Position numbers and translations under genes: made by a program
Assembly (NCBI RefSeq): GCF_000687915.1
Contig: NZ_JHZY01000004.1
Location: 754,001-818,000 of the forward strand
Length of the DNA stretch: 64,000 nucleotides
From: Leeuwenhoekiella sp. MAR_2009_132
GTDB lineage: Bacteria > Bacteroidota > Bacteroidia > Flavobacteriales > Flavobacteriaceae
Direction of reading: 5' to 3'
In this document: piece by piece, positions 37,421 through 63,976 of the stretch
Layout of the letters: the number at the start of each line of letters is the position of its first letter
Position numbering within the stretch: the stretch's first letter is position 1
Notes under the pieces: model-generated
Databases searched by the model: none
What the model saw: the letters and a program-made list of their open reading frames with translations, nothing else
Told to the model about the DNA's origin: nothing

Positions 37421-37426
37421 GCTTTG

Positions 37427-37484
37427 TACAGGCGGGGAGACTCGAACTCCCACACCTTGCGGCACTAGATCCTAAGTCTAGCGT
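37427..37484 (-). tRNA. 3' part of a tRNA-Leu(UAG) gene, the attachment site of the integrated element
   Basis: On the minus strand the anticodon stem CTAGA/TCTAG with loop CTTAGGA (anticodon TAG), a long class-II variable arm, the T arm GGGAG-TTCGAGT-CTCCC and the 3' acceptor strand CGCCTGT plus A are all intact. The 5' side is not: no ACAGGCG acceptor strand is found where it should be (near 37510), although a vaguely D-arm-like GGTGCTGTTTGGGC is there. So this is not a working tRNA but a fragment. A tyrosine recombinase gene begins about 240 bases inward. The expected reading is an integration boundary, with the complete tRNA rebuilt at the far right end, outside the window. CCA is not encoded. 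Confidence 0.8.
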
Positions 37485-37581
37485 ACATTTGCCCAAACAG
37501 CACCAAAGCCACTCATTTTCAATTGATTATATAATATGTCATTTTCTTTGATATCATCTAATATCAATTGATTTCAACATT

Positions 37582-37686: not shown

Positions 37687-37720
37687 TGATTTGGCTTTCG
37701 TACGCAAAACTAGGTCAATT

Positions 37721-38935
37721 ATGTCATCAAACGCTAAAATAGTTCTTCGCAAAAAGCCTAATAAAGAAGGCTTGTATCCTCTTGCCATACGTATTACAAA
37801 AAATCGTCGCTCAACATACCAATATATAGGTCACTACATTGAATTGGAAGATTGGGATGAAAAGAATATTCGGGTTAAGAAATCACACATAAATTTCAAA
37901 ACCTTGAACAATTTGTTATCCTTGAAACTTTCTGAATTAAACAATGCTCTTATTACGCTTCAATCCGAACAAAAAGATGCTTCTGCCAATCAAATTAAGA
38001 AGGAAATATATTCCTCCGGTATCAATGCTACATTCTTTGAATTAGCACAAGAACATCTTGACGATTTAGAAAGTACAGAAAAGCTAAATCGTTTATCTAC
38101 TGATAAAGCGTGGTTGAGTTTTATTATAAAATATCACAATTCGAAACAATTGTCTTTTCAAGAAATTGATGAACGTTTTCTTAAAAAACTGATGTTAACT
38201 TTAAAAGTTAAGTACTCCCTGTCTGAAACCTCAATAATGAACATTTTGGTATTTGTAAGGCTATTATTTAACAGAGCAATTAAATACAAAATTGTAAGCA
38301 GAGAATTATATCCCTTCGGTGGCGATAAAATAAAAATCAAATTTCCTGAGACTACCAAAGTAGGACTAAATATTTTAGAGATTAAACAAATTGAAAATTT
38401 GATAAATCTCAAACCTTCTGAAATGCATACTAGAAATGTCTGGCTTTTTAGTTTCAATTTTGCTGGTATGCGGGTTTCTGATGTTTTGCGAACAAGATGG
38501 TCGGATATTTATGATAACAGATTGCATTATAGAATGCATAAAAACGCAAAGCTTCTATCATTAAAAATCCCTGAAAAAGTATTGAAGATTTTGGACCAAT
38601 ATAGAGACGATAAAAGAAGTGATGATGATTTTGTTTTCCCTGAATTGAAAAAGGCAGACCCTGAAAATGCGAAAGATTTATATAACAAGAGAAAAACTGC
38701 TACAAAGAGGTTTAATGACAATCTAAAATCAATTTCTAAAAAGGCTAAAATCAATAAGCATATAACAATGCACATAGCACGTCATAGCTTTGGGAATATT
38801 GCTGGGGATGCAATACATCCTTTAATGCTTCAAAAATTGTATCGCCATAGTGATTTGAAAACCACCTTAAACTATCAATCTAACTTTATACATAGAGAAG
38901 CTGATGATGCATTAGATAGTGTTGTAAACTTCTAA
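37721..38935 (+). CDS. Tyrosine recombinase/integrase of the element (404 aa)
   Basis: The ATG at 37721 is used; the frame can be extended to a TTG at 37691, which is less likely. Domain order is an arm DNA-binding domain (about 1-90, opening MSSNAKIVLRKKPNKEGLYPL), a SAM-like core-binding domain (about 100-205) and the catalytic domain (about 215-404). The catalytic residues are present: Arg251 in GMRVSDV, His351 and Arg354 in HIARHSFG, His376 in YRHSDL and nucleophile Tyr385 in TLNYQS. This is the Bacteroidetes conjugative-element type. It lies just inside the tRNA-Leu fragment and is the only plus-strand gene of the element in view. Confidence 0.93.
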   Translation: MSSNAKIVLRKKPNKEGLYPLAIRITKNRRSTYQYIGHYIELEDWDEKNIRVKKSHINFKTLNNLLSLKLSELNNALITLQSEQKDASANQIKKEIYSSGINATFFELAQEHLDDLESTEKLNRLSTDKAWLSFIIKYHNSKQLSFQEIDERFLKKLMLTLKVKYSLSETSIMNILVFVRLLFNRAIKYKIVSRELYPFGGDKIKIKFPETTKVGLNILEIKQIENLINLKPSEMHTRNVWLFSFNFAGMRVSDVLRTRWSDIYDNRLHYRMHKNAKLLSLKIPEKVLKILDQYRDDKRSDDDFVFPELKKADPENAKDLYNKRKTATKRFNDNLKSISKKAKINKHITMHIARHSFGNIAGDAIHPLMLQKLYRHSDLKTTLNYQSNFIHREADDALDSVVNF

Positions 38936-50893: not shown

Positions 50894-53431
50894 TTAAAGT
50901 TTTAACGAACGTAACCGCAAAGCGTTCATAATAACGGAAACTGAACTAAAGCTCATTGCCAAAGCCGCTATCATTGGTGATAATAACAACCCGAAAATAG
51001 GGAACAAAACACCTGCTGCGATTGGGATTCCTAAAATGTTATATCCTAAAGCCCAAAATAGGTTTTGCTTGATGTTACGCATTACACCGTCGCTCAATTC
51101 CCGTGCCTTGACAATACCGTGCAAATCGCCTTTTACCAAGGTTATCATTGCACTTTCAATGGCAACATCTGTTCCTGTTCCCATTGCGATACCAACATCA
51201 CTTTTTGCCAAGGCTGGCGCATCATTGATGCCGTCGCCTGCCATTGCTACAACTTTTCCGCTGTTCTGTAATTTTTCTACTTCCTGAAGTTTGTTTTCGG
51301 GCAACATTCCTGCTTTAAAATCAGCAAGATTTAATTCTTTTGCGACCGCTTGGGCAGTATCGTGATTGTCGCCAGTAAGCATTATTACTGCGATACCTTT
51401 GTCTTGAAGTGCTTTGATCGCTTTGGCGCTGGTCGCCTTTATTTTGTCGCCAATGACAACATATCCCACAACTTTTGAATCGATGGATAGGTATGAAACT
51501 GTTTTTCCTTGCTTTTGAAAACTTTGTGCTTCGGTTTCCATTTCCGAAGTTAATTCAGCCTTGGCGTATGCCATCATTTTGGAATTCCCTAAATCCACTT
51601 TTTTCCCGTTGATGTTTCCTTCAACACCTTTTCCGGTAACTGCGCTAAACTTTTCAGCGCTCAAAAACTCAACATTCTTTTCTTTACCATATTTTACAGT
51701 TGCTTCGGCAAGCGGATGCTCGCTTTTGCTGTTTAGGGAAACGATGTATTGAAGCACTTCTTTTTCTGAAAAATTAGTTCCGAAGGCTCCGACTTTTTCA
51801 ACCGTTGGTTTGCCTTCTGTTATGGTTCCTGTTTTATCGATAATAAGTGTATCCACCTTGTCCATTTTTTCCAAAGCTTCGGCATTTTTTATGAGCACAC
51901 CATTTTGTGCGCCCTTACCAACACCGACCATAATGGACATTGGTGTTGCCAAGCCCAAGGCACAGGGACAGGCGATAATCAATACTGCAATTGCATTTAC
52001 AAAGGCATAAACATAGACGGGTTCCGGACCAAAAATAGCCCAAACCACAAATGTGATAATGGAAATAAGGACAACTATGGGTACAAAATATCCCGAGACG
52101 GTATCCGCCAATTTTTGGATTGGTGCACGACTGCGACTGGCATTATTGACCATTTGGATAATTTGGGACAGTAGGGTATCTGCACCCACCTTTTCGGCTT
52201 TCATCAAAAAAGATTGGTTGCCGTTGATGGTGCCACTGGTAACTTTGTCATTTGCCGCTTTGTTTACGGGAATAGGTTCGCCTGTAATCATAGATTCATC
52301 GACCGTTGTACTACCTTCGGAAATCACGCCATCAACTGGAATTTTTTCGCCTGGTTTCACCCGTAGGATATCGCCCAATTTAATGCTATCAATCGTAACC
52401 TCTTCTTCCTTGCCATCTTTGACTAGTATGGCCTTGTTTGGCGCGAGCTTTAGCAATTCCTTTATTGCTGAATTGGTTTTGCCGTGGGCACGTGCTTCCA
52501 AAACCTGACCCAAGAGCACCAAGGTCAAAATAATAGTGGATACTTCATAATATACGTGAACGGCACCAGATTCTGTTTTGAACTGTGCCGGGAAAAAATC
52601 GGGAAAAAGCATACCGAATACGCTGAATAACCACGCTGCGCCAGCACCAATGCCGATTAGGGTAAACATATTGAGGTTCCAGGTTTTGATGCTTTTATAG
52701 GCACGTTCAAAGAACATCCACGTAGCATAAAACACCACAGGAATTGAAAGTGCAAGCTGAATCCAGTTCCAGTTTTTTTGCTTCATTACCGTATATAACG
52801 GATTATTCGGAATCATATCGCTCATTGCGATTAAGAAAATAGGTAAGGTAAAGGCGACTGCAATCCAGAATTTCTTGAGTAATTTGTTATAGGTCTTTTC
52901 TTCGGCTGAACTATCTGCTTCCATTGGGACTAAGTCCATCCCACAGATTGGGCAGGCTCCAGGTTCATCTTTTACAATTTCCGGGTGCATTGGGCAAGTC
53001 CATTGTTCAGAAGTTTTTGCAGATAAATTTTGCTCTTCAACTAAATCCATTCCGCAGACAGGACAGTCTCCAGTTTTTTCATATGTTTTGTCTCCCTCAC
53101 AATGCATCGGACAGTAAAAAGTGCCAGTTCCTTTACCTTTAGGTTTTTCATTTTTTGCTTTCGTACTTCGACTACGCTCAGCATCAACTCCGGCGGTATC
53201 GTTTTGATGATGTCGCTCTCCAGATTTGTGGATAGAATAAGTACCACCTTCTTTTTTAAGGGCATCTTGGAATTTCTCAATAGGAATATGTGATTCCATT
53301 TCAATGGTAGCTTCAGCTTTTGCTAAATTCACAGTAGCCTTTGAGACACCTTTCACTTTGGAAAGTGTTCCTTCTACGTGATTTCGACAACCATTGCAGG
53401 TCATTCCGTGTATTTTATAGGTGTGTTTCAT
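50894..53431 (-). CDS. Heavy-metal P1B-type ATPase with HMA and two heavy-metal-binding domains (845 aa)
   Basis: N-terminal HMA (GMTCNGC, Cys12 and Cys15), then two heavy-metal-binding (YHS-like) domains FYCPMHCEGDKTYEKTGDCPVCGMDLV (described by parts: CPMH and CPVCGM) and WTCPMHPEIV...CPICGMDLVP, eight membrane helices, the ion site ACPCALG, DKTGT, HPLAEA and GDGINDAPAL. It is a second Cu(I)/Ag(I)-type pump. Its domain plan is that of larger Bacteroidetes CopA proteins. It heads the cluster ATPase-PepSY-DUF305-CusB. The HMA-proximal part has a stretch rich in Arg, Glu and Lys (SRSTKAKNEKPKGKG) that looks linker-like. Confidence 0.95.
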   Translation of the reverse strand: MKHTYKIHGMTCNGCRNHVEGTLSKVKGVSKATVNLAKAEATIEMESHIPIEKFQDALKKEGGTYSIHKSGERHHQNDTAGVDAERSRSTKAKNEKPKGKGTGTFYCPMHCEGDKTYEKTGDCPVCGMDLVEEQNLSAKTSEQWTCPMHPEIVKDEPGACPICGMDLVPMEADSSAEEKTYNKLLKKFWIAVAFTLPIFLIAMSDMIPNNPLYTVMKQKNWNWIQLALSIPVVFYATWMFFERAYKSIKTWNLNMFTLIGIGAGAAWLFSVFGMLFPDFFPAQFKTESGAVHVYYEVSTIILTLVLLGQVLEARAHGKTNSAIKELLKLAPNKAILVKDGKEEEVTIDSIKLGDILRVKPGEKIPVDGVISEGSTTVDESMITGEPIPVNKAANDKVTSGTINGNQSFLMKAEKVGADTLLSQIIQMVNNASRSRAPIQKLADTVSGYFVPIVVLISIITFVVWAIFGPEPVYVYAFVNAIAVLIIACPCALGLATPMSIMVGVGKGAQNGVLIKNAEALEKMDKVDTLIIDKTGTITEGKPTVEKVGAFGTNFSEKEVLQYIVSLNSKSEHPLAEATVKYGKEKNVEFLSAEKFSAVTGKGVEGNINGKKVDLGNSKMMAYAKAELTSEMETEAQSFQKQGKTVSYLSIDSKVVGYVVIGDKIKATSAKAIKALQDKGIAVIMLTGDNHDTAQAVAKELNLADFKAGMLPENKLQEVEKLQNSGKVVAMAGDGINDAPALAKSDVGIAMGTGTDVAIESAMITLVKGDLHGIVKARELSDGVMRNIKQNLFWALGYNILGIPIAAGVLFPIFGLLLSPMIAALAMSFSSVSVIMNALRLRSLKL

Positions 53432-53445
53432 AGTATCTGTTATTT

Positions 53446-54801
53446 TTACATTTTCATTTGTTCTTTTTCACTGTTTTCCATTCCCATATTCATATTTCCG
53501 TCTTTATCTGTATGCGATTTCATAAAAATAAATTGAGAAAGAAAAATGAGGGCAATACCAATTGCAGCAACTATTAGTACAAATGGGTCGTTTACATATT
53601 TTAAATAGATAAATGCTGCCAAAATAACAACATCCAACAGTATGGCAATTATTGGAATAATCGGGTTGAATTTTACTTCCTTTTTCAAATATTTAAAAAG
53701 TCCCCAATGAATAGCAATGTCCATTATCAAATAGAAAATAGCACCAATGGAAGCTATGCGAGTTAAATCGAACAAAACAGTCAAAAGTATCGCTAAAGAA
53801 ACAGTAAAAATCAGCGAAGGATTTTTAAGTTGCTTCATTCTGTTCATATCAGGAACTTGTTTCATATTGCTTAACATACCCAACATTCGCGAGGCAGAAT
53901 ATACGCTGGCAATTACACCGGAAACTGTTGCAACAATGGCTAGTAAAATAGTTAGCGTTGAACCCCATTCGCCAAATAGAGGTTTTGCTGCTGCTGCGAG
54001 AGCATAATCTTTTGCTATTATAATTTCTTCAATACTCAATCCGCCAGCAACCGATAATGCCAAAACAACATAGATAACCGTACAAACGATTATTGATATA
54101 ATTATGGAACGCCCTACATTTTTATGAGGATTTTTTATATCGCCACCTTGATTGGTAATGGTCGTAAATCCTTTGTATGCAAGGATAGACAAGGCCAATG
54201 CGGCAATAAATCCAAAACCTTCAGGCAGGGATTGGCCATTGGCAGCACTATAAGTACCTGTGATTGTGGGTAAACCAGAAATAACCAATCCTGATATAGC
54301 AAGAACTGCAATACCCACTACTTTAATAATTGCAGTAATGGTAGCGGTAGTCTCAATAATCTTGTTACCCGAAATATTGATGATATATGCAGCAACAATA
54401 AGCAATACACCCAATGCAGATGCATAACCTTCATATCCTTGCGGAAACAGTCGTAACGCATACGCCCCAAAAGTACCTGCCACTAAACTTTCTGAGACAA
54501 CCATTGATACATACATCAGCAAAGAAAATGAACCAGCAAGTGTACCTGGTAAATAGGCCTTTGTCAAAAATTTAGCAACACCTCCAGAAGAAGGATAGGC
54601 GTTTGAAAATTTAACATACGAATAGGAGCTAAAGCCTACTACAACTGCGCCTGCGATAAAAGCAATAGGAAATAAATCGCCGACTAATTCGGCTATCTGC
54701 CCCATTAAAACAAAAATACCTGCACCAATCATTACGCCTGTACCTAAAGATACAGAGCCTAATAATGAGAGCTTTTGGGTATTTATTTTTAATGGTTTCA
54801 T
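53446..54801 (-). CDS. APC-family amino acid permease (451 aa)
   Basis: Twelve membrane helices with the APC opening SLLGSVSLGTGVMIGAGIFVLMG, the SSYSYVKFSNAYPSSGGVAKFL region and KGFTTITNQGGDIKNPHKNVGR in helix 6-7. It probably exchanges an amino acid or polyamine. Its C-terminus ends in a Met-rich tail (DGNMNMGMENSEKEQMKM) unusual for APC proteins and suggestive of copper contact. It lies 14 bases upstream of the second P-type ATPase gene in the same run, so it is part of this metal-linked operon. Its solute is unknown. Confidence 0.87.
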   Translation of the reverse strand: MKPLKINTQKLSLLGSVSLGTGVMIGAGIFVLMGQIAELVGDLFPIAFIAGAVVVGFSSYSYVKFSNAYPSSGGVAKFLTKAYLPGTLAGSFSLLMYVSMVVSESLVAGTFGAYALRLFPQGYEGYASALGVLLIVAAYIINISGNKIIETTATITAIIKVVGIAVLAISGLVISGLPTITGTYSAANGQSLPEGFGFIAALALSILAYKGFTTITNQGGDIKNPHKNVGRSIIISIIVCTVIYVVLALSVAGGLSIEEIIIAKDYALAAAAKPLFGEWGSTLTILLAIVATVSGVIASVYSASRMLGMLSNMKQVPDMNRMKQLKNPSLIFTVSLAILLTVLFDLTRIASIGAIFYLIMDIAIHWGLFKYLKKEVKFNPIIPIIAILLDVVILAAFIYLKYVNDPFVLIVAAIGIALIFLSQFIFMKSHTDKDGNMNMGMENSEKEQMKM

Positions 54802-54875
54802 CTCGAAATTTCTATTTAATCTGATTACAATATTGGTTGCGGGTCACTTTTTATATGTTATATATATGTTTCAAA

Positions 54876-55169
54876 TTACCTTAATTTTTTTCGGATTGCC
54901 TCAGAAATATTTTCAGAGTAAACCCCATAAGCATCCACCAATAAGCCTTTTATTCCATTTTTGGAAGAAATGGCATATAGTACACTATTGTCATCTGTGC
55001 TACTCATTCCTTCAAAACGATGCATCTCGTCCACCTCAAAATCTTCTGGATGGAATTTCAACTTTAGAGCATTACATTCCAGATGTTTCTCTTTCAAATT
55101 GAAATCAACAGTGTAGCCTTTAGCCTGTAAATGAGCCATAGTTTCAGAAAGTGTATCGTAGCTTTTCAT
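54876..55169 (-). CDS. Small protein of unknown function (97 aa)
   Basis: A cytoplasmic, 97-residue protein with the run MKSYDTLSETMAHLQAKGYTVDFNLK then KLKFHPEDFEVDEMHRFEG. Proteins of this type are often called phosphoribosylpyrophosphate synthetase in Flavobacteria databases, but it is far too short for that enzyme and has no PRPP loop, so I treat the name as an error. It is followed by the APC gene 74 bases downstream. A stem-loop repeat of the element (55180-55253) lies directly before its start. Confidence 0.75.
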   Translation of the reverse strand: MKSYDTLSETMAHLQAKGYTVDFNLKEKHLECNALKLKFHPEDFEVDEMHRFEGMSSTDDNSVLYAISSKNGIKGLLVDAYGVYSENISEAIRKKLR

Positions 55170-55179
55170 ATTATAATAG

Positions 55180-55253
55180 TGCCCGACTTGGGAAGGAGTT
55201 TTAACTAATCAACAATGAAAAATTTTCCATTCCCTTCCCACATCAGGACTTAT
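55180..55253. repeat. Stem-loop repeat, copy A
   Basis: GTGCCCGAC..GGGAAGG and CCTTCCC..CAGGACTTA pair around a loop with CTAATCAACAATG. The same ends and loop occur in copies at 58416, 62145 and 62220. It lies 74 bases after the stop of the gene at 55327 and before the 97-residue gene. Confidence 0.65.
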
Positions 55254-55326
55254 TTTATGTTCTCTTGGCCTGTTTTAAATATCATAAATACTCTTATCAT
55301 TCTTTTTGAATATAGAAAACACATAG

Positions 55327-55869
55327 TTATTCCAATTTCAGCACCAATTGTGCAAATTGCACATTTATTGTTTTATCCAAACCTTGCATTAAAGAATCTA
55401 ACCCCGTATCTGAAACCAAAACCTGTCCCGTTGCACTTATCAGACAAGACATATTTATGCCCTGTTCTATATGGGTAATGGTTGCTTTAAACTGTGATTT
55501 ATAGGTTTCCCCTTGATATAAAACATCAACCAGCCAATTAAAATTGATAGGGTCGTGCCGTTTTGATAAAAAATCAACGGATGGAATAGTACCTGTAAAC
55601 CGAAGAATTGCAGGTGCTTCCCCTTCTTGTATAATGGCATTTAATTCAGGAAGGTCTGTTACTAAAGTTTTAAGGTCTAGAACACCATTTACTACTTTAG
55701 AATTGTAATCAAGATATAGTGCCAGACTATGGCTTTCTGCCTTGATAGTCTTACCGTCCACCAAAGTCATCATCTCAATATGGCCATCATCGGTTCTATA
55801 TATTTTTTGAGCCGAAACCTCGAAATATGTTATTAAAAGAACTGCGAACATCAATAGTTTAGTTTTCAT
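55327..55869 (-). CDS. Exported YceI-like protein (180 aa)
   Basis: The ATG at 55869 gives MKTKLLMFAVLLITYFEVSAQ, a signal peptide; a longer frame at 55926 starts with TTG and lacks a sensible signal. The body resembles YceI lipid-binding lipocalins: GHIEMMTLVDGKTIKAESHSLALYL, then DLKTLVTDLPEL and VQFAQLVLKLE. The match is weaker than for the clear YceI gene at 59136. It probably binds an apolar molecule in the periplasm. The gene lies 71 bases before the HhH/nuclease-like gene stop, on the same strand. Confidence 0.6.
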   Translation of the reverse strand: MKTKLLMFAVLLITYFEVSAQKIYRTDDGHIEMMTLVDGKTIKAESHSLALYLDYNSKVVNGVLDLKTLVTDLPELNAIIQEGEAPAILRFTGTIPSVDFLSKRHDPINFNWLVDVLYQGETYKSQFKATITHIEQGINMSCLISATGQVLVSDTGLDSLMQGLDKTINVQFAQLVLKLE

Positions 55870-55940
55870 AATGTTTATTGTTGCTAATTGTTTTCTATAT
55901 AAAGTAAGTATAACCATAATCCGCAATTGCCAATTTCAAA

Positions 55941-57185
55941 TCAAACTGATTTTGCTATTTTTTCCATAATTGTAAGGTCTGTACCAAATTTGCAAATCGC
56001 ATCGCAATGCATCCTCAATTCAGAAAACAAAATATACTTTATATGCATCTTGGAATTTTTGATTACAGGTCGATTCAATTGATGTATGACGTCTTTTTCA
56101 CGATGGTTTGGAATGATGATATAAAAAACCTCATCGCCATCGGAAATGCTGAAATATAAATCGGACAGTCTTAAAATTCCTGAATAGATACTGGTGCTTT
56201 TTTCAACCTCAAAAGCGGCTACTATATTATTGGTTCCCTTTTCAAACCAAAGCACATCAATGAGTTTAATGGTGGTTTGGGTTTCCTTATCGCAAGGAAG
56301 CGCTGGAAATGTTTTCATTGAAATGAACGAAAAACTTTGACCGCCAAAAGATTTACTTTTATCGTTGCTGGCAGGTGTAACGTCAAAACCAAGTGAAATG
56401 CCGATTTTCAATAAATGGTATTGCATTTCGTCGTGAAGTTTCTCTTCCTGCTTTTCTTCCTGAATTTCCCTTTGCCGTTTTACGATGTTTTTTTCAAATT
56501 TGACCCGTTCGGCCTCACTTAAATATTCGTCGTTACCTATGAGCATTTTTTGGGTGCCAATCTCGAAACACAATCCTGCAATTGCGCCTAAATCGTTTGA
56601 CAGTTCCGTTTTGTTTTTAGTATTGGTTTCTATCAAGATTTCCCTGATTTTCAGATACTCCGTCCAACTTCCCAATTTCTTTTTATCCTTGAACAGAAAA
56701 TTAAACCCATTTAGTATGGCCGTATTAAATGGTGGAAACCAAGTGGGATGCAAAAAATATAAAATACTTGCTACCGCTGGGCCGAGGCCTTTTACTTTGA
56801 GTGCATCCAACTTTACGATTTCCCTTACGACCTGTTCTTCCGTTTTGGCATTAATACAGTTTTCCAAAAATTGACCAAAAGCTATTTTATTGTCCTGATT
56901 TTCATAGATATCAGGAATGCGCAGTTTCGGCTTCCAATAAAAAGGATGCGCCACACCCGCAAAAACTTGCTTTTGCTCTGCAATGCTGCCCAACACAAAT
57001 TCCAGACTGCTTTCCTTAAAATCGTTTGGGAAGGTTTTGTTTTTAATGTCCTCAATCACCTGCAAAACGCCTCTACGGATGGTTCTAAACGCCTTCAATC
57101 TCTGGTCATTGTCAACAAACCAAGTATTGTAAACACTTTCCGAGTCGGTTTTATATTGATGGATTATTTGAGGAAAATTGCTCAT
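55941..57185 (-). CDS. Helix-hairpin-helix plus PD-(D/E)xK-like protein, unknown function (414 aa)
   Basis: The ATG at 57185 avoids a 46-base overlap with the next gene, so I prefer it to the Met at 57239. Residues about 127-147 (LKVKGLGPAVASILYFLHP) have a helix-hairpin-helix-like pattern as in DNA glycosylases and DNA-binding proteins. A coiled region (about 225-262) follows. Then VLWFEKGTNNIVAAFEVEKS (311-330) gives Asp310 and Glu326-x-Glu-Lys329, the core of a PD-(D/E)xK nuclease. It may be a restriction or repair type nuclease, but no family is confirmed. Its partner gene at 57194 encodes a NTF2-like protein. Confidence 0.6.
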   Translation of the reverse strand: MSNFPQIIHQYKTDSESVYNTWFVDNDQRLKAFRTIRRGVLQVIEDIKNKTFPNDFKESSLEFVLGSIAEQKQVFAGVAHPFYWKPKLRIPDIYENQDNKIAFGQFLENCINAKTEEQVVREIVKLDALKVKGLGPAVASILYFLHPTWFPPFNTAILNGFNFLFKDKKKLGSWTEYLKIREILIETNTKNKTELSNDLGAIAGLCFEIGTQKMLIGNDEYLSEAERVKFEKNIVKRQREIQEEKQEEKLHDEMQYHLLKIGISLGFDVTPASNDKSKSFGGQSFSFISMKTFPALPCDKETQTTIKLIDVLWFEKGTNNIVAAFEVEKSTSIYSGILRLSDLYFSISDGDEVFYIIIPNHREKDVIHQLNRPVIKNSKMHIKYILFSELRMHCDAICKFGTDLTIMEKIAKSV

Positions 57186-57193
57186 TGTTGCTG

Positions 57194-57676
57194 TTATTTC
57201 GTGTTTCTTGAAGAGGTATGTGTTTTGATGATTTTCCATTCGCCACCCATCTTTTTTAGGATAGACGTTGCCACGCCTTTTTTGCGAATCGTTCGTGTTT
57301 CACCTTTTTCATTTGGGTTAAGCACTATGGTATAAATGTAGGTTTCAGTAGTAAAAGCATAGGGCGCATCTACTTTGGCATCGATTTCATAATCAGAAAA
57401 GGTAAAACTTTTAAATTCGCCTAATTCTGGTCCAAGATGATGCTCAATGTAATGTGCATACGTGCCTTCGACTCCACCGGATTCAAATACTTCAGAATCT
57501 TCTGCAAATAAATTGAACGTGCCTTCAGTTGTCAAATTTTGAATGGCATCCTTGTAGGTTTTCATCACAGCAATAACCGCTTCCGTATCCGTCTTTGCTT
57601 TTGTTTCCTGTGCGTTGGATAAGCTGAAAGTAGCAATGAGAATTGTTACGAGTGCAATTGTTTTAATTGTTTTCAT
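57194..57676 (-). CDS. Exported NTF2/SnoaL-like protein (160 aa)
   Basis: A signal peptide (MKTIKTIALVTILIATFSLSNAQ) precedes a SnoaL/NTF2-like cone fold. It is recognised from AVIAVMKTYKDAIQNLTTEGTFNLFAEDSEVFESGGVEGTYAHYIEHH (by parts) and the late KKGVATSILKKMGGEWKIIKTHTS. Such exported proteins bind small molecules or act as enzymes, with no known role in this context. It is followed by the HhH/nuclease-like gene 8 bases downstream and preceded by the K+ channel gene 18 bases upstream. Confidence 0.82.
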   Translation of the reverse strand: MKTIKTIALVTILIATFSLSNAQETKAKTDTEAVIAVMKTYKDAIQNLTTEGTFNLFAEDSEVFESGGVEGTYAHYIEHHLGPELGEFKSFTFSDYEIDAKVDAPYAFTTETYIYTIVLNPNEKGETRTIRKKGVATSILKKMGGEWKIIKTHTSSRNTK

Positions 57677-57694
57677 AATTTTAGTTTTTAAAGG

Positions 57695-58252
57695 TTATTT
57701 ATTATCAACGTGTATTCTATTAATATTTGCAATGCCAAAGACAAGTACCAAAAAGCTCAAGAAAATTTCCATCATTACCAGCGTTTTTCCCGCAATTGAA
57801 ATTGGTACAATATCGCCATATCCAACCGAGGAAAAAGTTATCAAGCTGAAATAGATAAATTCAAAAAATTGCAAGAAGAATGAACCATTGAGCGAAGTAC
57901 TCTCTTTGAAATTTTCAGAATTCAAAATATATAACGCGTGATAATCAGTCGTGAATGAAAAAACAATCAAAACAATCAACACCGCAAATAAAGTTAGGAC
58001 GTGCGCAAGCTGATGGCTTTCGCCTATTATTTTAGCCAATTGTATGAACGTAAGCCGAACGATAAAAATGGTCTTGATTAGAGCCAAAGCCACAATTAAA
58101 ATAGGTCGCCATAGGCCATTATCATCTGCTTGTGCCCAAAATATATAACTCAGTGATATAGCGATAACCGCCGTTGCGGTAAGCAATACTTTTTTAAAGA
58201 GCTGTCCATAAAACCCATTGCCGTTTGATATATCATTTATAGTTTCTTTCAC
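57695..58252 (-). CDS. Ion channel, potassium-channel family (185 aa)
   Basis: A membrane protein with four hydrophobic segments and the potassium selectivity filter SSVGYGDIVPIS (about 140-151) between the last two helices. A GTG start is used because no in-frame ATG lies near. Two extra helices before the pore module (AVIAISLSYIFWA, LFAVLIVLIVFSF) make it a small, soluble-domain-free K+ channel. It is read with the NTF2-like gene at an 18-base gap. Its function in the element may be tied to envelope or ion stress, but that is inference. Confidence 0.85.
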   Translation of the reverse strand: MKETINDISNGNGFYGQLFKKVLLTATAVIAISLSYIFWAQADDNGLWRPILIVALALIKTIFIVRLTFIQLAKIIGESHQLAHVLTLFAVLIVLIVFSFTTDYHALYILNSENFKESTSLNGSFFLQFFEFIYFSLITFSSVGYGDIVPISIAGKTLVMMEIFLSFLVLVFGIANINRIHVDNK

Positions 58253-58415
58253 TATTGATTTTTTTAATACATTAATATTAGTTATATCATTGCAACACCA
58301 ATAAATAAGTATTGATGCCTTGAAAGGATAGATGAAACTCTAGTGGCCACTCCATAAAAATATACATCCTGAAAATCCAGTATTTACAATAAGATTTTCT
58401 TTCACAAAATTTCTA

Positions 58416-58475
58416 GTGCCTAACAAGGGGGGACTAAAACCAACCATCAACATTGACCCTTCCCTAATTAGGGCT
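58416..58475. repeat. Stem-loop repeat, copy B
   Basis: GTGCCTAAC..AAGGGG and CCCTTCCCTAATTAGGGCTT flank a loop with CCAACCATCAACATTG. The right arm can also pair with itself (CCCTAATTAGGG). It is 35 bases after the stop of the DUF4136 gene and 160 bases before the K+ channel gene. The rest of 58253-58509 shows nothing recognisable. Confidence 0.65.
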
Positions 58476-58509
58476 TTTTTTCTTGATATCTTTTTATATC
58501 ATTTTAAGC

Positions 58510-59106
58510 TCAGTTTTTTACAGTATTCCCATATTGATATTTTGCAAATATTTTTGCCACCGCCTCCTTAATTTCCTTTTGCTTGTCGGTGGTATTTGCG
58601 TGCAGCACATCTGGCGCAAATCCTTGCCAGACTAATTGACGGCGTTTCATATCTATAAGTTCTATGACAACGCCACCTTCTTTGTGTTCTTGAGATGATT
58701 GGTAACCGCCATAATATCCATAACCGTAAGACCCGAAATGACCATAACCGTGACCATAAGAAGGAAAATAAGGGTAGCCACCACCTGTGTTTATATCTCT
58801 TGTCTGTACAACGATACGGGAATCTACCAATAAATCAGGATTGCTCTTATTCAAGACGTAGCCTTTATTTTCCATTTGTTCCTGAATGGCGCCTTTTAAC
58901 CGTTTCTTTATCAATGTGTTGAAAAATAACGGTTCGTTTTCCTTGTCGCTGTCCATTTGAAAATCATCGGACCAGTAAAAGGTTTTGTAGGTTCCAAACT
59001 GTGCTTCTTGGTCATAATCGGTAACGATGGCCGAAGAAGTGACCGAACAACTTACTGCGGTAATGCTTATTAAAAGGCAGACTGCCAATTTTATTAATGT
59101 TCTCAT
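58510..59106 (-). CDS. DUF4136 lipoprotein (198 aa)
   Basis: Lipoprotein signal MRTLIKLAVCLLISITAVSC with the lipid cysteine at residue 20. The mature domain is DUF4136: DYDQEAQFGTYKTFYW at the start, NPDLLVDSRIVVQTRD in the middle, and the typical late RRQLVWQGFAPDVL. A Gly/Tyr/His-rich loop (GHGYGHFGSYGYGYYGG, about 120-136) is inserted between. It is a periplasm- or surface-facing protein of unknown role and is common in Bacteroidetes envelope clusters. It starts 29 bases after the YceI gene. Confidence 0.87.
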   Translation of the reverse strand: MRTLIKLAVCLLISITAVSCSVTSSAIVTDYDQEAQFGTYKTFYWSDDFQMDSDKENEPLFFNTLIKKRLKGAIQEQMENKGYVLNKSNPDLLVDSRIVVQTRDINTGGGYPYFPSYGHGYGHFGSYGYGYYGGYQSSQEHKEGGVVIELIDMKRRQLVWQGFAPDVLHANTTDKQKEIKEAVAKIFAKYQYGNTVKN

Positions 59107-59135
59107 AATCCATTTATTTAATTCAACAATCTATT

Positions 59136-59684
59136 TTATTTCTTCGTAAGTATTGCATCCACACTCAAGTCGTGCTTGTCATTAACTTTTATAAATACCA
59201 AACTTGGGCGTTCCAAATTATAATCGGTAATCAATAAAGACCAAGAAGCTGTTAATTGAATTGTATCTTCTGAAACAAGTTTCAACTCAATAGGAATGGT
59301 TATTTCCCGAGTAACTCCGGCAAGGGTGAAATCTCCCTTTGCGTTGAGCGTTTGTGTCGCTTTTTCTTCAAAATTAAAATCGTCCATAAATTTTCCTTCA
59401 AAAACAACATTGGGTTTTTTTTCCGCTTTTACCAGATCATACATATGTCCATCCCGTTTTTCATTATCTGTCTTTATGGATTTTACAGGAACCGAAAAGG
59501 TCAACGTGCCGTCCTTAAAACCTATGGTGCCCTGTAAATCATCAGATTTGCCGATATAGGAATTAAGTGGCATTTTTGCCTTAAAGGATGCGGTTCCTTC
59601 CTTTACTATATAATTTTGGGCCTTTATAGATACATTGCTTGAAAACAACAGTATTATTAACAAATAAATTAAGTTTTTACCCAT
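59136..59684 (-). CDS. YceI-family exported protein (182 aa)
   Basis: Signal peptide MGKNLIYLLIILLFSSNVSIKAQ, then a YceI lipocalin-like domain: EGTASFKAKMPLNSYIGKSDDLQGTIGFKDG (by parts), SFSVPVKSIKTDNEKRDGHMYDL and the FTLAGVTREITIPIE strand. YceI proteins bind isoprenoids or other lipids in the periplasm. The gene overlaps the upstream glutamate-synthase-like gene by eight bases, so the two are coupled. Its target ligand is unknown. Confidence 0.88.
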   Translation of the reverse strand: MGKNLIYLLIILLFSSNVSIKAQNYIVKEGTASFKAKMPLNSYIGKSDDLQGTIGFKDGTLTFSVPVKSIKTDNEKRDGHMYDLVKAEKKPNVVFEGKFMDDFNFEEKATQTLNAKGDFTLAGVTREITIPIELKLVSEDTIQLTASWSLLITDYNLERPSLVFIKVNDKHDLSVDAILTKK

Positions 59685-61203
59685 TACTTTTTATTTTTCG
59701 ACCATTCAATCCATTTGAGTATAACTCTTGATATGTCTTGGTCTCATTCTCATTGATTCGGCGGACAATATACTTTTTGTCGATACCCTTTCTATTTTCA
59801 ATACCCATTGATTTTAGCAGTTCCTTAAAACCTTCGATGGTATTTTTATGATAGTTGGCAACTTTGGTTTTTTTATCTTTTACAACAATGGATGCAACTC
59901 GGGAAGGCACCATTGTGGTAATTCCCGTAGGGCAGGTATCCAAATTGCATTTTAGCGATTGCACACAGCCCAAGGCAAACATCATCCCTCTTGCGCTATA
60001 ACAGGCATCTGCGCCGAGCGCCATCATTCTATAGATATCAAAAGCGGATATAATTTTACCAGCTGCCATTACTTTAATTTCATCTCGCAACCCATACTTT
60101 TTAAGAATGCCGTTTGCGAAATGGATGGCTTCAATTATTGGCATACCGGCCCAATGTAAGGATTCCATATGGGCAGCACCAGAGCCACCTTCGGCACCGT
60201 CAATGGCTATAAAGTCTGGGCAATTTTGCTTTTCGGCAAAGGTTTGAACCATTCTTTCAAACTCATCTTGTTGACCAATGCACAGCTTTATTCCCACAGG
60301 TTTTCCTTTAGAGAGTTTTCTCAATTTTCTAATGAAGCGTAGCATTTCAACGTCATTGTCGAATGCCGAATGAAAGGCTGGGGAATGAATTTCCGTTCCC
60401 TGCTCCACATCCCTGAATTTGGCAATTTCCTTTGTGTTCTTCTTTGCCGGCAAAATTGCCCCAAAGCCAGGTTTGGCACCTTGCGATATTTTTATTTCAA
60501 TCATTTTCACTACATCGTTGGTTGCGATATCGGCGAATTTTTTGGCGTCAAAATTTCCTTCTGCATCACGACATCCAAAATAGCCTGTTCCAAACTGAAA
60601 GATAATATCTGCACCGTATTCTTGATGATAGGGTGTAAAGCCACCTTCGCCGGTGTTTTGAGCAAAACCTGCTATTTTCGCACCACCGTTAAAAGCAAGG
60701 GTAGCATTTTTGCTTATGGAACCAAAACTCATTCCCGCAAGGTTGAGAATGCTGGCAGAGTAAGGTTTTAAGCAGTGGGAACTTCCTATAAGAACTCTAA
60801 AGTCGTCATTGATTTGTTTTGCAGGATATGTGGAATGGGTAAACCACTCGCGCCCCACTTTGTCATACGGAATCTGTGTTCCAAAAGGTTGATTTATAAG
60901 CGCATCGGCAGCTCTTTTATAGACAATTTCCTTTTGAATTAAAGTAAAGGGTTGCCCTTCGGTACGGTTGAGCAATAATGTTTCCTGAATAACGTGGCGT
61001 TGCTCCTCAAGAAGATTTGTGATTCTACCAAGCAAAGGGTAGGTTCTCCTAATATTATTTGATTCTTGAAAATAGTCCACAAGACCGAGAACGAGTAAAG
61101 GAAGGATAATCAATCCAATCCACCACAAATGGGGATGCCAAAATACCATAACGATATATGCAGCAACTAAAAATATAGCGGTTATAATAAATCCTTTTCT
61201 CAT
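59677..61203 (-). CDS. FMN-binding glutamate-synthase-family protein, membrane-attached (508 aa)
   Basis: Two N-terminal membrane helices (about 3-20 and 24-42) lead to a GltB-like FMN TIM barrel. Markers are SFGSISKNATLAFNGGAKIAGFAQNTGEGG, GAKPGFGAILPAKKN, DGAEGGSGAAH and MAAGKIISAFDIYRMMALGADACYSARGMMFALGCVQ. A cysteine cluster (CVQSLKCNLDTC) is typical of the iron-sulphur site. Unlike GltB it has no amidotransferase domain, so it is an orphan redox enzyme and not a full glutamate synthase. It is the first gene of a pair with YceI. Substrate unknown. Confidence 0.88.
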   Translation of the reverse strand: MRKGFIITAIFLVAAYIVMVFWHPHLWWIGLIILPLLVLGLVDYFQESNNIRRTYPLLGRITNLLEEQRHVIQETLLLNRTEGQPFTLIQKEIVYKRAADALINQPFGTQIPYDKVGREWFTHSTYPAKQINDDFRVLIGSSHCLKPYSASILNLAGMSFGSISKNATLAFNGGAKIAGFAQNTGEGGFTPYHQEYGADIIFQFGTGYFGCRDAEGNFDAKKFADIATNDVVKMIEIKISQGAKPGFGAILPAKKNTKEIAKFRDVEQGTEIHSPAFHSAFDNDVEMLRFIRKLRKLSKGKPVGIKLCIGQQDEFERMVQTFAEKQNCPDFIAIDGAEGGSGAAHMESLHWAGMPIIEAIHFANGILKKYGLRDEIKVMAAGKIISAFDIYRMMALGADACYSARGMMFALGCVQSLKCNLDTCPTGITTMVPSRVASIVVKDKKTKVANYHKNTIEGFKELLKSMGIENRKGIDKKYIVRRINENETKTYQELYSNGLNGRKIKSNG

Positions 61204-61212
61204 TTTTCAGTA

Positions 61213-61887
61213 TTAATGTGAATGTTCATCACTTTCTCCGTGACCTTCTTCGTTTTCGTTACCAAGATATTTCCCCTGTGGGCCAACTCCTTCAATATGC
61301 ACGAGCTGTGAACCATAGTGTCCTGCCTGTGCTACTGAATATCCTGCAAAAGCCATAACTACAAATACCCCAATTTCAAAACCTCGCTTTAATTTGTACC
61401 AGAAGAGGCTTACTATTTTTAATAGGGCTGCCAAAGCACTTGCCCATAAAGTCCAATCTGCATATTTGTCGTGCAGTTCCAAGACCTTTTTTGCGGTTTC
61501 TGTAAGTCCTTCGGTATGTGGGTGCACCAGTGTACCTGCTACGTAAGCTCCGATAAATCCGAATCCTACTGTTAGTAAAATGACCCAATCCAGTGTGCGA
61601 TTTAAAACGAACAGCTGGATGAGCTGTAACAAAACTGCCAATAAAAGCAGTACAATCGGGAAGTGTACAACTAATGGATGCAGATTAGGGAAATCGTCCA
61701 AACCGGCTTCAGTATGGTCTTGTGAGACAGAAATTGGACTGCTTGTTTCAAAAATAGAAAGTGATTTCTCATCCTTGATGTCGGTTTTAGTTTCAGAAAC
61801 AATAAAATTACTATCAGCAAATACCGTCGAAAAACCTCCAAACAAGGCTAACATCAATACGGTGAAAATTATTTTTTTAGATTTCAT
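61213..61887 (-). CDS. DUF2231-type membrane protein with signal peptide (224 aa)
   Basis: The ATG at 61887 starts a signal peptide (MKSKKIIFTVLMLALFGGFSTVFA). A start at 61911 would overlap the small gene upstream. The domain PNLHPLVVHFPIVLLLLAVLLQL and HPHTEGLTETAKKVLELHDKYADW is DUF2231, with four membrane helices and His residues that may bind heme. It ends with a His/Glu-rich tail (NENEEGHGESDEHSH) that may bind metal. It is followed by the glutamate-synthase-like gene at 9 bases. Confidence 0.85.
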   Translation of the reverse strand: MKSKKIIFTVLMLALFGGFSTVFADSNFIVSETKTDIKDEKSLSIFETSSPISVSQDHTEAGLDDFPNLHPLVVHFPIVLLLLAVLLQLIQLFVLNRTLDWVILLTVGFGFIGAYVAGTLVHPHTEGLTETAKKVLELHDKYADWTLWASALAALLKIVSLFWYKLKRGFEIGVFVVMAFAGYSVAQAGHYGSQLVHIEGVGPQGKYLGNENEEGHGESDEHSH

Positions 61888-61903
61888 TTTATATAGTTTT
61901 AAA

Positions 61904-62041
61904 TTAATCACCTGTTAATTGCAAGATCAATACACCTATCACAATAATGGCTATAATGGCATAAATGGTATAATTGAACCATTTTTTGAAGCCACTTCTC
62001 TTTTGTTTGGTTTCGCTACCGGTTTTACAACAATCTTTCAT
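61904..62041 (-). CDS. Small CC-motif single-helix membrane protein (45 aa)
   Basis: The frame from 62041 encodes MKDCCKTGSETKQKRSGFKK, one membrane helix (NYTIYAIIAIIVIGVLILQ) and LTGD. Early Cys4-Cys5 may bind metal. It overlaps none of the chosen starts and sits 16 bases before the DUF2231 gene, in the same run. Small CC-leader membrane proteins are frequent in Flavobacteria metal clusters, but the family has no name that I know. Confidence 0.5.
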   Translation of the reverse strand: MKDCCKTGSETKQKRSGFKKWFNYTIYAIIAIIVIGVLILQLTGD

Positions 62042-62144
62042 CTGTTGATATTTATTTATTTTTAATTATCAGATGTAATTGGCCAATCAACATTTCGCTT
62101 GTTATCAACTTTTTTGTATGGCTCATTTCATACTATTTTATTTG

Positions 62145-62213
62145 TGCCTAATTAAGAGAAAGGGCTTCACTAACCAACCAAAAGTATGTGCCCTCTCTCT
62201 TATTAGGACTTAA
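62145..62213. repeat. Stem-loop repeat, copy D
   Basis: GTGCCTAAT..AAGAGAAAGGGC and GCCCTCTCTCTTATTAGGACTTA form the best stem of the family (about 17 pairs) around a loop CACTAACCAACCAAAAGTATG. Its stem sequence is unlike the other copies except at the ends. It lies 7 bases before copy C in tandem. Confidence 0.7.
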
Positions 62214-62219
62214 ATTTTT

Positions 62220-62283
62220 GCCTGACCTGGGAAGGAATTAACACTAACCATCAACATTGTTTTCCTTCCCACGACAGGACTTA
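62220..62283. repeat. Stem-loop repeat, copy C
   Basis: GCCTGAC..TGGGAAGGAA and TTCCTTCCC..CAGGACTTA pair around a loop with ACTAACCATCAACATTG. Tandem with copy D in the 410-base gap 62042-62451. In the rest of that gap (62284-62451) I see no gene and only a TTAGGGAAGGG fragment reminiscent of the repeat. Confidence 0.7.
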
Positions 62284-62451
62284 ATGACTACCCAAGATAT
62301 CCCAGACATCTTATTTACTTCTGTTAACTAATAAACCAGAGCAACAAAAGATGCTTAGGGAAGGGATTACCTATTGAATAGTCTTTTGTATTTTGCCATA
62401 TTTAAACTTCCTACTACCATATTATCGGTTTCTTACTTTGTTTATTTACAC

Positions 62452-62883
62452 TCAATTATTTCCTTTTGCAATTAGGCTGTCCAATTCCATATACTTTTCT
62501 TTCATTAGGCTTAACGCAAAAGCTCCAGCAGAAGCTGTAAAGACTGAAAAGTCTAATGCTCCTTTTATTCCAGTGGAAAATGTCATTGAAAGCGCAAATA
62601 GTAGCAGTAAAAATCCACTCCATTTTGCGAACAATTCTGTTTTAAATCCAATTATCAAGAAGAATGCAAAAATAATTTCAGCTGCGGTTGCAATAATTCC
62701 GATTGTTGAAATTAATGAGTCCGGAATCCAAGGATTTATCTGTTGTGTGTAGTTAAGAAAATTATCCCAATTCCCCCACACAGAAACATCTTTGTTCCAC
62801 AATCCAAATCTATCAGCTACTGCCGATAAAAATCCGATTGATATTGCAAGTCGCAAAAAGAGTTTGATTATTTTAGTCCTCAT
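62452..62883 (-). CDS. DoxX-family membrane protein (143 aa)
   Basis: Four membrane helices with the DoxX layout: helix 1 at about 5-22 followed by SAVADRFGLWNKD, then IIATAAEIIFAFFLIIGFKTELFAKWSGF with the typical AE and GF positions and the late SGIKGALDFSVF. DoxX proteins are small redox-linked or quinone-linked membrane proteins. It is separated from the tandem stem-loops by about 170 bases and from the upstream DUF3347 gene by 56 bases. Exact role unknown. Confidence 0.85.
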   Translation of the reverse strand: MRTKIIKLFLRLAISIGFLSAVADRFGLWNKDVSVWGNWDNFLNYTQQINPWIPDSLISTIGIIATAAEIIFAFFLIIGFKTELFAKWSGFLLLLFALSMTFSTGIKGALDFSVFTASAGAFALSLMKEKYMELDSLIAKGNN

Positions 62884-62939
62884 CTTTGATTATTGTTGGT
62901 TGCTTAATTCTCTTGATTTTGGTCAAAAGGATTACAACT

Positions 62940-63500
62940 TTACTGAATTGTCTTTTGAACTTTCCCACATTTAAGCATTTTGCTGCCATAGTAGGGGTTT
63001 TTTACTTCATTACTTGTACTTAACCAAGCACTTCCTTTATCGTACATTGGGCAAAATTGTTCATATAACGTGCTTTTTGTACCCGTAATAGCTACCATAT
63101 CAGTAATATCCTTACTTAACGTTTTAAAGTGCTCGCGTTGGTGGTCTATCGCACTTTCAGAAATATGTTCTGCGTGCTCGGTAGCATCTTCTATGATATC
63201 GGCCAGCTCTTTTTGTTGTTCTTTTGAGTAACTACTCTTATCGAATTTTTTAAGAGAGGCTACCAATTTAGAACCTGATTGTGCCGCTTTCTTGGTGTCA
63301 TCGCCTACCAAAGCATCTTTCAACATAAAATAATCGGCAAGAACCGTTTCTGCCGCTGGATTCATTTTGTCCATTTTCATTTTACTATGATCCATTTCCA
63401 TTTCACCGTGCTTGTGGTTCATTTTTTCTTTTTCCTGGGCGTTGGTAAAAGAAACTGCTAACAATAGCATTACTGCTATACTCATTTTTAAATTTTTCAT
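62940..63500 (-). CDS. DUF3347 exported protein (186 aa)
   Basis: A signal peptide ([22 protein letters not shown]) precedes a His/Met-rich segment ([20 protein letters not shown], about 27-46) and a DUF3347 domain (about 50-186) with [13 protein letters not shown] and [12 protein letters not shown]. It is a stand-alone version of the domain at the ends of the HMA protein at 41406 and the CusB-like protein at 47828. The Cys, Met and His composition points to copper binding in the periplasm. It follows the heme-binding gene at 23 bases. Confidence 0.88.
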
Positions 63501-63523: not shown

Positions 63524-63976
63524 TTATAAACTATCTTTTAATTGTGTGATAAAATTGATTAATTCTTCTGCCTCCGCTTCAGAAAACTTAGCATCTTTAT
63601 GTATCAAAGTGTAAGAATCCAAAGGCATTTCTCCGCTTTCTATCTGTTTGATAATTGATCGAAGTTTACTTGATTTTCTTCGGCTTGAAAGCGAATCCCA
63701 TTCGTTAAAATTAAGTTCGGCCTTGCCTTCTTTAATGTGGTCTTCCAAAAACCAAGCAGCGGGTTGAATCTTATTATACCAAGGATATTGCGTATTGTTA
63801 CTGTGACAATCATAGCAGGATACCTGTAATTTTTTCTGAATAGTTTCAGGAACATTATGTACCAACATAAAATCAGTTTCGGGAACCGTATAACTTTGAT
63901 TGCGTTCCGTGGGAATAAATTGAATCCCCACAAACCCTACCAGTGCTATTATTGCTATGATTTTTAAAATTTTCAT
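63524..63976 (-). CDS. Heme-binding domain (cytochrome-like) protein (150 aa)
   Basis: An N-terminal membrane anchor (about 3-18) is followed by a heme-attachment motif CYDCH (about 53-57, [20 protein letters not shown]) as in the Haem_bd family (DUF-type, PF14376), and late helices with [12 protein letters not shown]. It is likely a periplasmic membrane-held electron carrier. Its start follows directly on the stop codon of an upstream frame at 63977. It lies 23 bases before the DUF3347 gene in the same direction. Confidence 0.88.

Follow-up and report, generated by a model that had tools for sequence, protein, structure and literature searches.

A candidate intercistronic RNA hairpin family in predicted copper-resistance operons of Flavobacteriaceae

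Four related stem-loop repeats lie between minus-strand genes in a 64,000-nucleotide stretch of Leeuwenhoekiella sp. MAR_2009_132 (contig NZ_JHZY01000004.1, positions 754,001 to 818,000; hereafter the window, meaning this whole stretch), and raise the question of whether such repeats are recombining or mobile DNA, or structures that act in the messenger RNA. Based on the comparisons made here, we propose that they belong to a hairpin family that forms an intercistronic mRNA element in predicted copper operons and likely sets the product levels of the genes before and after it, a reading that we favour with some reserve.

Hairpin copies in the window

A first-pass annotation of this DNA had placed four copies of the repeat in one common direction, each 3′ of the end of a minus-strand gene. 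All four were confirmed at these places, in that direction and in register with one another, and each of them does follow such a gene end. Their coordinates are given here as covariance-model units on the minus strand, which is the strand of the genes and gave the best reading (nt, nucleotides; aa, amino acids):

55178..55255, minus strand, hairpin copy A: model match 81.7 bits; its 3′ end lies 8 nt ahead of the ATG of a 97-aa gene
58415..58480, minus strand, hairpin copy B: model match 69.7 bits; follows a DUF4136 gene; stem partly mismatched
62143..62215, minus strand, hairpin copy C, which is hp2 of an array: model match 75.4 bits; arms AAGAGAGAGGGC/GCCCTTTCTCTT, loop GGTTGGTTAGTG
62217..62286, minus strand, hairpin copy D, which is hp1 of the same array: model match 75.2 bits; AAGTCCTG, GGGAAGG arm, loop TTGATGGTTAGTG, CCTTCCC, CAGGCA

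Read on the minus strand, the repeat runs from AAGTCC (AAGCCC in copy B) through a short outer stem, a small internal loop, a purine-rich arm, the loop and the partner arm to an AGGCAC-like end. The purine-rich arm is GGGAAGG, or AAGAGAGAGGG in copy C, and the loops of copies C and D listed above serve as examples of that part. As model units, C and D are 1 nt apart. When single copies were folded and compared with 200 dinucleotide shuffles per copy, the minus-strand fold of A, C and D beat all 200 shuffles in each case (z −4.8, −4.8 (C −4.75) and −5.5, respectively), and direct reading of copies A and C identified a G-U pair on the minus strand that is a mismatch on the plus strand.

Family members in other genomes and covariation of the stems

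To tell loci apart, stretches of other genomes or of adjoining DNA carry L-numbers and genomes carry G-numbers, G000 being the own genome. A covariance model built from the four window copies (R1) recovered these copies from the whole own genome at E values of 4.5e-21 to 2.5e-17 and gave eight further matches at E<=10; the best of these reached only 0.73, and the earlier claim that the copies are confined to the integrated element therefore holds. Among 249 Flavobacteriaceae genomes, R1 matched 68 at E<=0.1. The matches at E<=1e-6, found in 39 genomes with 1–4 hairpins per genome, were treated as real, and the weak ones between 1e-6 and 0.1 (29 of the 68 genomes) were dropped as a group, as chance. 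We fetched 44 surrounding stretches and built a second model (R2) from 45 matches. At E<=0.001, R2 matched 7 of 395 genomes sampled from the phylum and 16 of 395 sampled from the order, of which 6 and 14, respectively, lie within Flavobacteriaceae. Three matches fall outside Flavobacteriaceae: the one in G914 was kept, its context (L100) being the same operon, while L101 and L102 were dropped because they overlap predicted reading frames. The match in L093 (31 bits) was also dropped as chance, since no such operon surrounds it.

We further compiled a named set, consisting of the best 80 loci obtained when named genomes were scanned for the haem-binding gene described below. The hairpin is present in 61 of these loci, with 81 matches at E<=0.001, every one of them in gene sense. 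Hairpin-bearing genera include Galbibacter, Nonlabens, Zunongwangia, Aequorivita, Gillisia, Dokdonia, Maribacter, Polaribacter and Arenibacter. Low-scoring antisense matches (18.8–24.5 bits) that cover these palindromes were left out of the copy counts. The window has no match at gathering score to any of the 4227 covariance models of Rfam, and the four Rfam matches at E<=3 within 54800–63000 lie over none of the hairpin copies. Nor was the family found described in the open-licence PMC literature, where titles and abstract starts were covered for the family, the operon and intercistronic stem-loops of Bacteroidetes, most subscription-journal papers lying outside this collection.

Across the family, the unit of about 70 nt comprises a 5-bp outer stem, a small internal loop and an inner stem, of some 8 bp, whose 5′ arm is rich in purines; the loop often contains GGTTAG, and the flanks read AAGTCC...GGCACA. 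In alignments fitted to the structure of the model, in which related rows are not independent, stem changes on both sides of a pair were frequent: the 81 matches (67 distinct rows) show pairing in 93.2% of cells compared with 80.8% in shuffles, both-side changes at 10 of 13 pairs, 112 double-change cells compared with 33.4 and a covariation score of 0.419 compared with 0.196, and the first 45 matches show both-side changes at 9 of 13 pairs with 48 double-change cells compared with 17.9. As a control, sliding the partner by one base in the 81-match alignment gave 13 or 14 double-change cells, and sliding it by two bases gave 33 or 21. On the gene strand, G-U cells exceed A-C cells by 42 to 10 in the second set and by 37 to 21 in the first, the two sets sharing species, and this excess suggests that it is the gene-sense strand that folds.

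The loop is the other conserved part. Of 95 unique copies, 44 carry GGTTAG in their core, where mononucleotide shuffling predicts 2.2, and many copies with differing stem sequences retain the loop and the flanks AAGT...CACA. The first-pass annotation had argued for selection on structure, with stems that compensate and a loop that is conserved, and this is supported across the family by the pair-change counts and by loop conservation; further matches with compensated stems do exist, and simple terminators do not account for them. In a weak test of pairing between the loop and the rRNA locus (strand of L236 unchecked, flanks included), Watson–Crick runs were no longer than those of shuffled loops, and the runs in which G-U was allowed had no shuffled control. 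The loop sequence resembles that of a tRNA D-loop (GGUUAG).

Operon context, arrays and neighbouring starts

Gene clusters were obtained by single-linkage clustering of the window and the 44 loci, and window members were named by Pfam; the gene names of the operon come from members in or beside the window. The loci share one operon type, in which genes for CusA/CzcA efflux, an OEP outer-membrane factor, an HTH_18 regulator, a multicopper oxidase (TIGR01480 match below its cut-off), a DUF3347 protein and a haem-binding protein are followed by the hairpin. After the hairpin comes a variable gene set that includes a copper-type P-type ATPase, DUF4440, a putative permease (downstream cluster c14, which we take to be one from a reading of its sequence only), an ion channel, a 45-aa peptide and others. 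The gene run around the window copies is a predicted copper-resistance cluster, and it extends beyond the right end of the window into L007; the first-pass annotation had overlooked that the copies form part of it. Its members in the window include the following:

63524..63976, minus strand, haem-binding domain protein (PF14376, by Pfam), the gene tied to the hairpin family by co-occurrence
62940..63500, minus strand, DUF3347 protein (PF11827, by Pfam)
61904..62041, minus strand, 45-aa peptide gene (MKDCCK..., from its translation), often next after the hairpin array in relatives
50894..53431, minus strand, copper-type P-type ATPase, further downstream in this gene run (NCBIfam TIGR01511, 593 bits, cut-off 397)

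An orthologue of the haem-binding gene (at least 170 bits) is encoded in 53 of the 249 genomes, and 37 of these 53 carry the hairpin at E<=1e-6, as do 2 of the 196 genomes without the orthologue, namely G030, whose contig ends there, and G129. In 39 of 45 loci, a hairpin comes straight after a gene that belongs to the haem-binding or the DUF3347 cluster. In the window and in its sister locus L050 an additional gene (cluster c40, no Pfam family) intervenes before the hairpin, and in L053 the contig starts just ahead of it. The 45-aa peptide gene has no Pfam family and recurs after hairpin arrays in many loci.

The array that precedes this peptide gene in the window contains one more hairpin, overlooked in the first pass, and a gene remnant:

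~62286..62383, minus strand, fifth hairpin hp0, with loop CTGGTTTATTAGTTAACAG at 62321–62339: folds; 13 aligned rows
62365..62449, minus strand, decayed second copy of the DUF3347 gene's 3′ end: local alignment to 62930–63019, score 73 compared with at most 34 in 200 shuffles

The fifth hairpin stands just before copy D and has a similar type of loop; in 13 aligned rows including the window its loop is conserved and its stems change, as judged by eye without a pair count. A generic motif-plus-fold scan of the window gave 11 matches compared with 8.7 per shuffled window, and only this hairpin was kept among the new matches, because the scan was near the shuffled level and the fifth hairpin has relatives. 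Its outer 5′ arm consists of the last bases of the decayed DUF3347 copy, and the predicted pairing with the 3′ arm is kept despite decay of the coding tail. The decayed tail follows a gene at 62452–62883 that was apparently inserted between the DUF3347 gene and the hairpin array, and is itself apparently left over from a gene insertion that duplicated the gene end. Where an operon has a second DUF3347 gene, several hairpins, as read by eye, stand in a row ahead of the 45-aa peptide gene. Their order is hp0 (loop GGTTTATTAGTTAAC), hp1 (copy D), in some operons hp2 (copy C), and two more with other ends, the last array hairpin again having a GGTTGATTGGTTAATA-like loop by eye; the window array consists of hp0, hp1 and hp2.

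With near-identical sister copies (L050, L156) left out of the comparison, the four window copies are mutually 62–67% identical but 86–93% identical to copies in other genera. Copy D is 93% identical to the hp1 copies of L058, L059, L061, L163 and L165, copy C is 92–93% identical to hp2 copies of other genera (L058, L163, L165), copy B is 86% identical to L057 8054–8122, which follows a gene of the same cluster, and copy A is 90% identical to the copies of L051, L216 and L217 after the haem-binding gene. Since the neighbours of copy A differ from those of its nearest relatives, operon blocks have been rearranged around it. We read the copies as old types that are mostly bound to their place, with no burst of a mobile repeat.

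Spacing to the neighbouring genes is often tight on both sides. The TAA stop of the haem-binding gene overlaps the 5′ flank of the hairpin by one base in most copies that follow this gene, and among 21 copies of the named set right after this stop, the next start lies 11–14 nt on in 17, before three unrelated genes. Across all sets, a start lies 6–16 nt after the unit in 35 of 107 unique copies, compared with a background, taken further downstream, of 7% per 11-nt bin (334/4752), related copies not being independent in these spacing counts. The spacer of the 35 close-start copies has A at −12 in 27 and A at −13 in 27, counts for which there is no background control. In Flavobacterium johnsoniae, A at −3, −6, −12 and −13 are positive determinants of initiation, according to excerpts of PMC6847099. 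The close-start spacing together with these reported positions suggests that, in the copies concerned, the hairpin ends about where the initiation region starts. At like junctions the hairpin can be present or absent: between the haem-binding gene and a c3-type gene it is absent in L150 and present in L104 and L078, and between the haem-binding gene and the P-type ATPase it is absent in L154 and present in L073. A small hairpin that is there at some junctions and missing at like ones in numerous genera of flavobacteria, and that frequently keeps one distance to unrelated starts, amounts to a natural experiment on how expression is tuned within operons.

Candidate functions and their alternatives

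The idea of a structured RNA 3′ element, one of several put forward in the first-pass annotation, finds support in the sense-only orientation, the G-U bias and the placement of the hairpins. We hypothesise that cells express the gene-sense strand of the hairpin as RNA, which is predicted to fold within a polycistronic mRNA and would likely act after transcription. The stem would set the upstream cistron, through protection or processing of its 3′ end, apart from the downstream initiation region, and this separation would change stability or initiation. The conserved loop may be read by a putative trans factor, either a protein or a small RNA. If so, tandem copies with different stems and like loops would provide extra binding sites, and the family would be a handle on an RNA-binding regulator. 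Hairpin arrays of the CsrB/RsmZ type, which sequester a protein, are likewise serial hairpins with different stems and a like loop motif, and a conserved loop motif with covarying stems, as expected for CsrB-like protein-binding hairpins, is what we find here. Unlike CsrB/RsmZ, however, the flavobacterial hairpins sit inside an operon, their loop motif is not the GGA of CsrA sites, and their target protein is only putative. The family bears on how expression is tuned within the operons of Bacteroidota; genomes of this phylum are largely without Shine–Dalgarno sequences, according to excerpts of PMC6847099.

Several observations weigh against an intercistronic mRNA element of this kind, in addition to the fitted alignments and the uncontrolled spacer counts mentioned above. 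Copy B alone folds no better than its shuffles (z −0.1; 92 of 200 equal it) and owes its place in the family to sequence, loop and model score rather than to stability of its own. Ten both-side-changed pairs are also reached by 58 of 500 shuffles of the 81-match set, and the first 45 matches have an ordinary number of pair types, one that 351 of 500 shuffles reach. The exact GGTTAG is missing in 51 of 95 unique copies, and the loops of L052 and L089 are quite different. The copper tie is not absolute, given that strong matches in L052 and L076 precede an RND efflux set and that a match of 42 bits in L105 (7992–8063) lies between genes for a TonB-type receptor and a DUF347 protein. Close spacing is not general either, since the next start lies at 6 nt (one copy) or 69 nt (three copies) in the other four of the 21 copies after the haem-binding stop, and 72 of the 107 unique copies have no start within 6–16 nt. 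Finally, the hairpin is dispensable: of the 53 genomes that encode the haem-binding orthologue, 16 are without a family match in the fetched loci (best R2 E value 0.22). The next start (open reading frame of at least 40 aa) lies 1–28 nt past the stop in 11 of these 16 loci and 63 nt past it in two, and the other three (L142, L143, L145) carry a different hairpin at the same place, given which the conserved loop may not be essential.

These exceptions have features of their own. The L105 match lies outside the copper operon proper, in a stretch that begins with a relative of the P-type ATPase. The hairpin of L142 and L143 has the same layout of outer stem, small internal loop and purine-rich inner stem, and the loop of the L145 hairpin resembles that of the fifth hairpin of the window. 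A match is missing from 19 loci of the named set; in one of these the contig stops at the gene, and the L142-type hairpin recurs in L203 and L211. In L142 (after position 3296), L143, L203 and L211, Gelidibacter records among them, this different hairpin begins at the haem-binding stop, and it perhaps represents another family, unrelated in sequence, that occupies this place.

The different hairpins in 3 of the 16 family-less loci would suit a plain structural hairpin, that is, a stabiliser or processing barrier between cistrons without any loop reader, whose loops are alike by common descent. We regard this as possible, if doubtful. The nearest worked example of intercistronic stem-loops that set relative transcript levels is the cip-cel operon of Clostridium cellulolyticum, where, in the excerpts of PMC4423207, selective RNA processing and stabilisation involves stem-loops between the cistrons of a long operon that stand at upstream 3′ ends and are gained or lost among orthologous operons. 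The flavobacterial hairpins resemble them in their stem and in lying at the upstream cistron's 3′ end, and are stable stem-loops between co-directional cistrons as in the processing or stabilising class, except for the stability of copy B alone. They differ from those of cip-cel in having a sequence-conserved loop and flanks, tandem arrays, a 3′ end that often lies about 13 nt from different starts, and processing that is putative. Retention of the GGTTAG loop and the AAGT...CACA flanks while stems change is unneeded for a pure barrier, and tandem copies with different stems also retain like loops. A cis element of the riboswitch or attenuator kind that responds to a metal or metabolite and controls the genes downstream seems distinctly unlikely. 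It would accord with the association with predicted copper genes, with the position 11–14 nt ahead of the starts of unrelated genes and with the hairpins of L076 and L052, which lie 84 and 50 nt ahead of the gene that opens the RND efflux set, but the element is a single short hairpin without a T-run (single folds only being considered), it occurs in tandem repeats, it stops just short of the initiation region without covering it, and similar operons lack it. Rho-independent terminators were rejected, as no T-run directly follows the unit in 95 of 96 unique copies, TTTT directly at +1 being found in one partial match (L229 7171–7228). TTTT occurs within −6..+10 of the unit end in 15 of the 96, in 14 of them at 4–7 nt past the end. 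A consensus terminator scan listed none at the copies, but it allows loops of 3–8 nt only, so that long-loop hairpins are outside its reach.

Readings in which the hairpin acts as DNA fare worse still. A single-strand recombination site like the attC of integrons, as raised in the first-pass annotation, would allow exchange of operon genes and would fit a hairpin at a gene end with variable genes downstream and with presence or absence at like junctions. In excerpts of PMC3053210, attC sites are palindromes of 57–141 bp with variable sequence and with boxes at the two ends, RYYYAAC as inverse core and GTTRRRY as core; the hairpins share with them the palindrome of about 70 bp at gene ends, the conserved ends and the variable paired middle. 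However, both boxes within 25 nt of the ends were found on either strand in none of 95 unique copies (one box in 4 of 95), and no integron integrase (TIGR02249) above the curated cut-off was found in 42 hairpin-bearing genomes, sub-threshold matches of tyrosine recombinases to this model being present in all 42 and in 14 of 14 controls. Single-gene cassettes are lacking as well, copies C and D adjoin so closely that there is no room for one, and gene order also varies at junctions without a hairpin. The conserved loop, the G-U pairs on the gene-sense strand and the old types of the copies likewise set the family apart from attC, and we consider such a site very unlikely. Hardly credible, in our assessment, is a small mobile repeat of the REP or MITE type that a tyrosine transposase would have spread, the other DNA element that the first-pass annotation had considered. 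REP elements with RAYT transposases are also short palindromic intergenic repeats after genes, and several similar palindromes within one element, their presence or absence between like genes and the unlike neighbours of copy A would agree with mobility. Against this, the hairpins are few, occur in one operon type and in a single orientation in the named loci (81 of 81), and are less alike within a genome than across genera. A dispersed REP/RAYT repeat was rejected because the four strong copies of the own genome all lie in one gene run, with nothing comparable elsewhere in that genome. No Y1 transposase (PF01797) was found in the own genome; 15 of the 42 hairpin genomes have one, and a single 265-nt array query had no match in plasmid and phage records.

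Within the favoured account of an intercistronic mRNA element, a more specific and rather unlikely version would make the hairpins cis sites of a post-transcriptional copper regulon in Bacteroidota, in which copper stress is sensed by a trans factor, or by the RNA loop itself, and the balance between operon parts is shifted in response. If this were true, the family would be, on the searches made here, the first dedicated copper-resistance RNA element in the phylum, and tandem arrays could be dose-counting sites.

Elsewhere in the window, a tRNA-Leu is encoded at 37426–37507 with an adjoining tyrosine integrase at 37691–38935 (Arm-DNA-bind_5, Phage_integrase), perhaps one end of an integrated element. 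A second tRNA-Leu lies about 60 kb on (L008 13760–13842), and 27 bases are common to both. The own genome also has, besides four full-length 16S rRNA matches, a partial match in three pieces at G000:C4:629981-631134.

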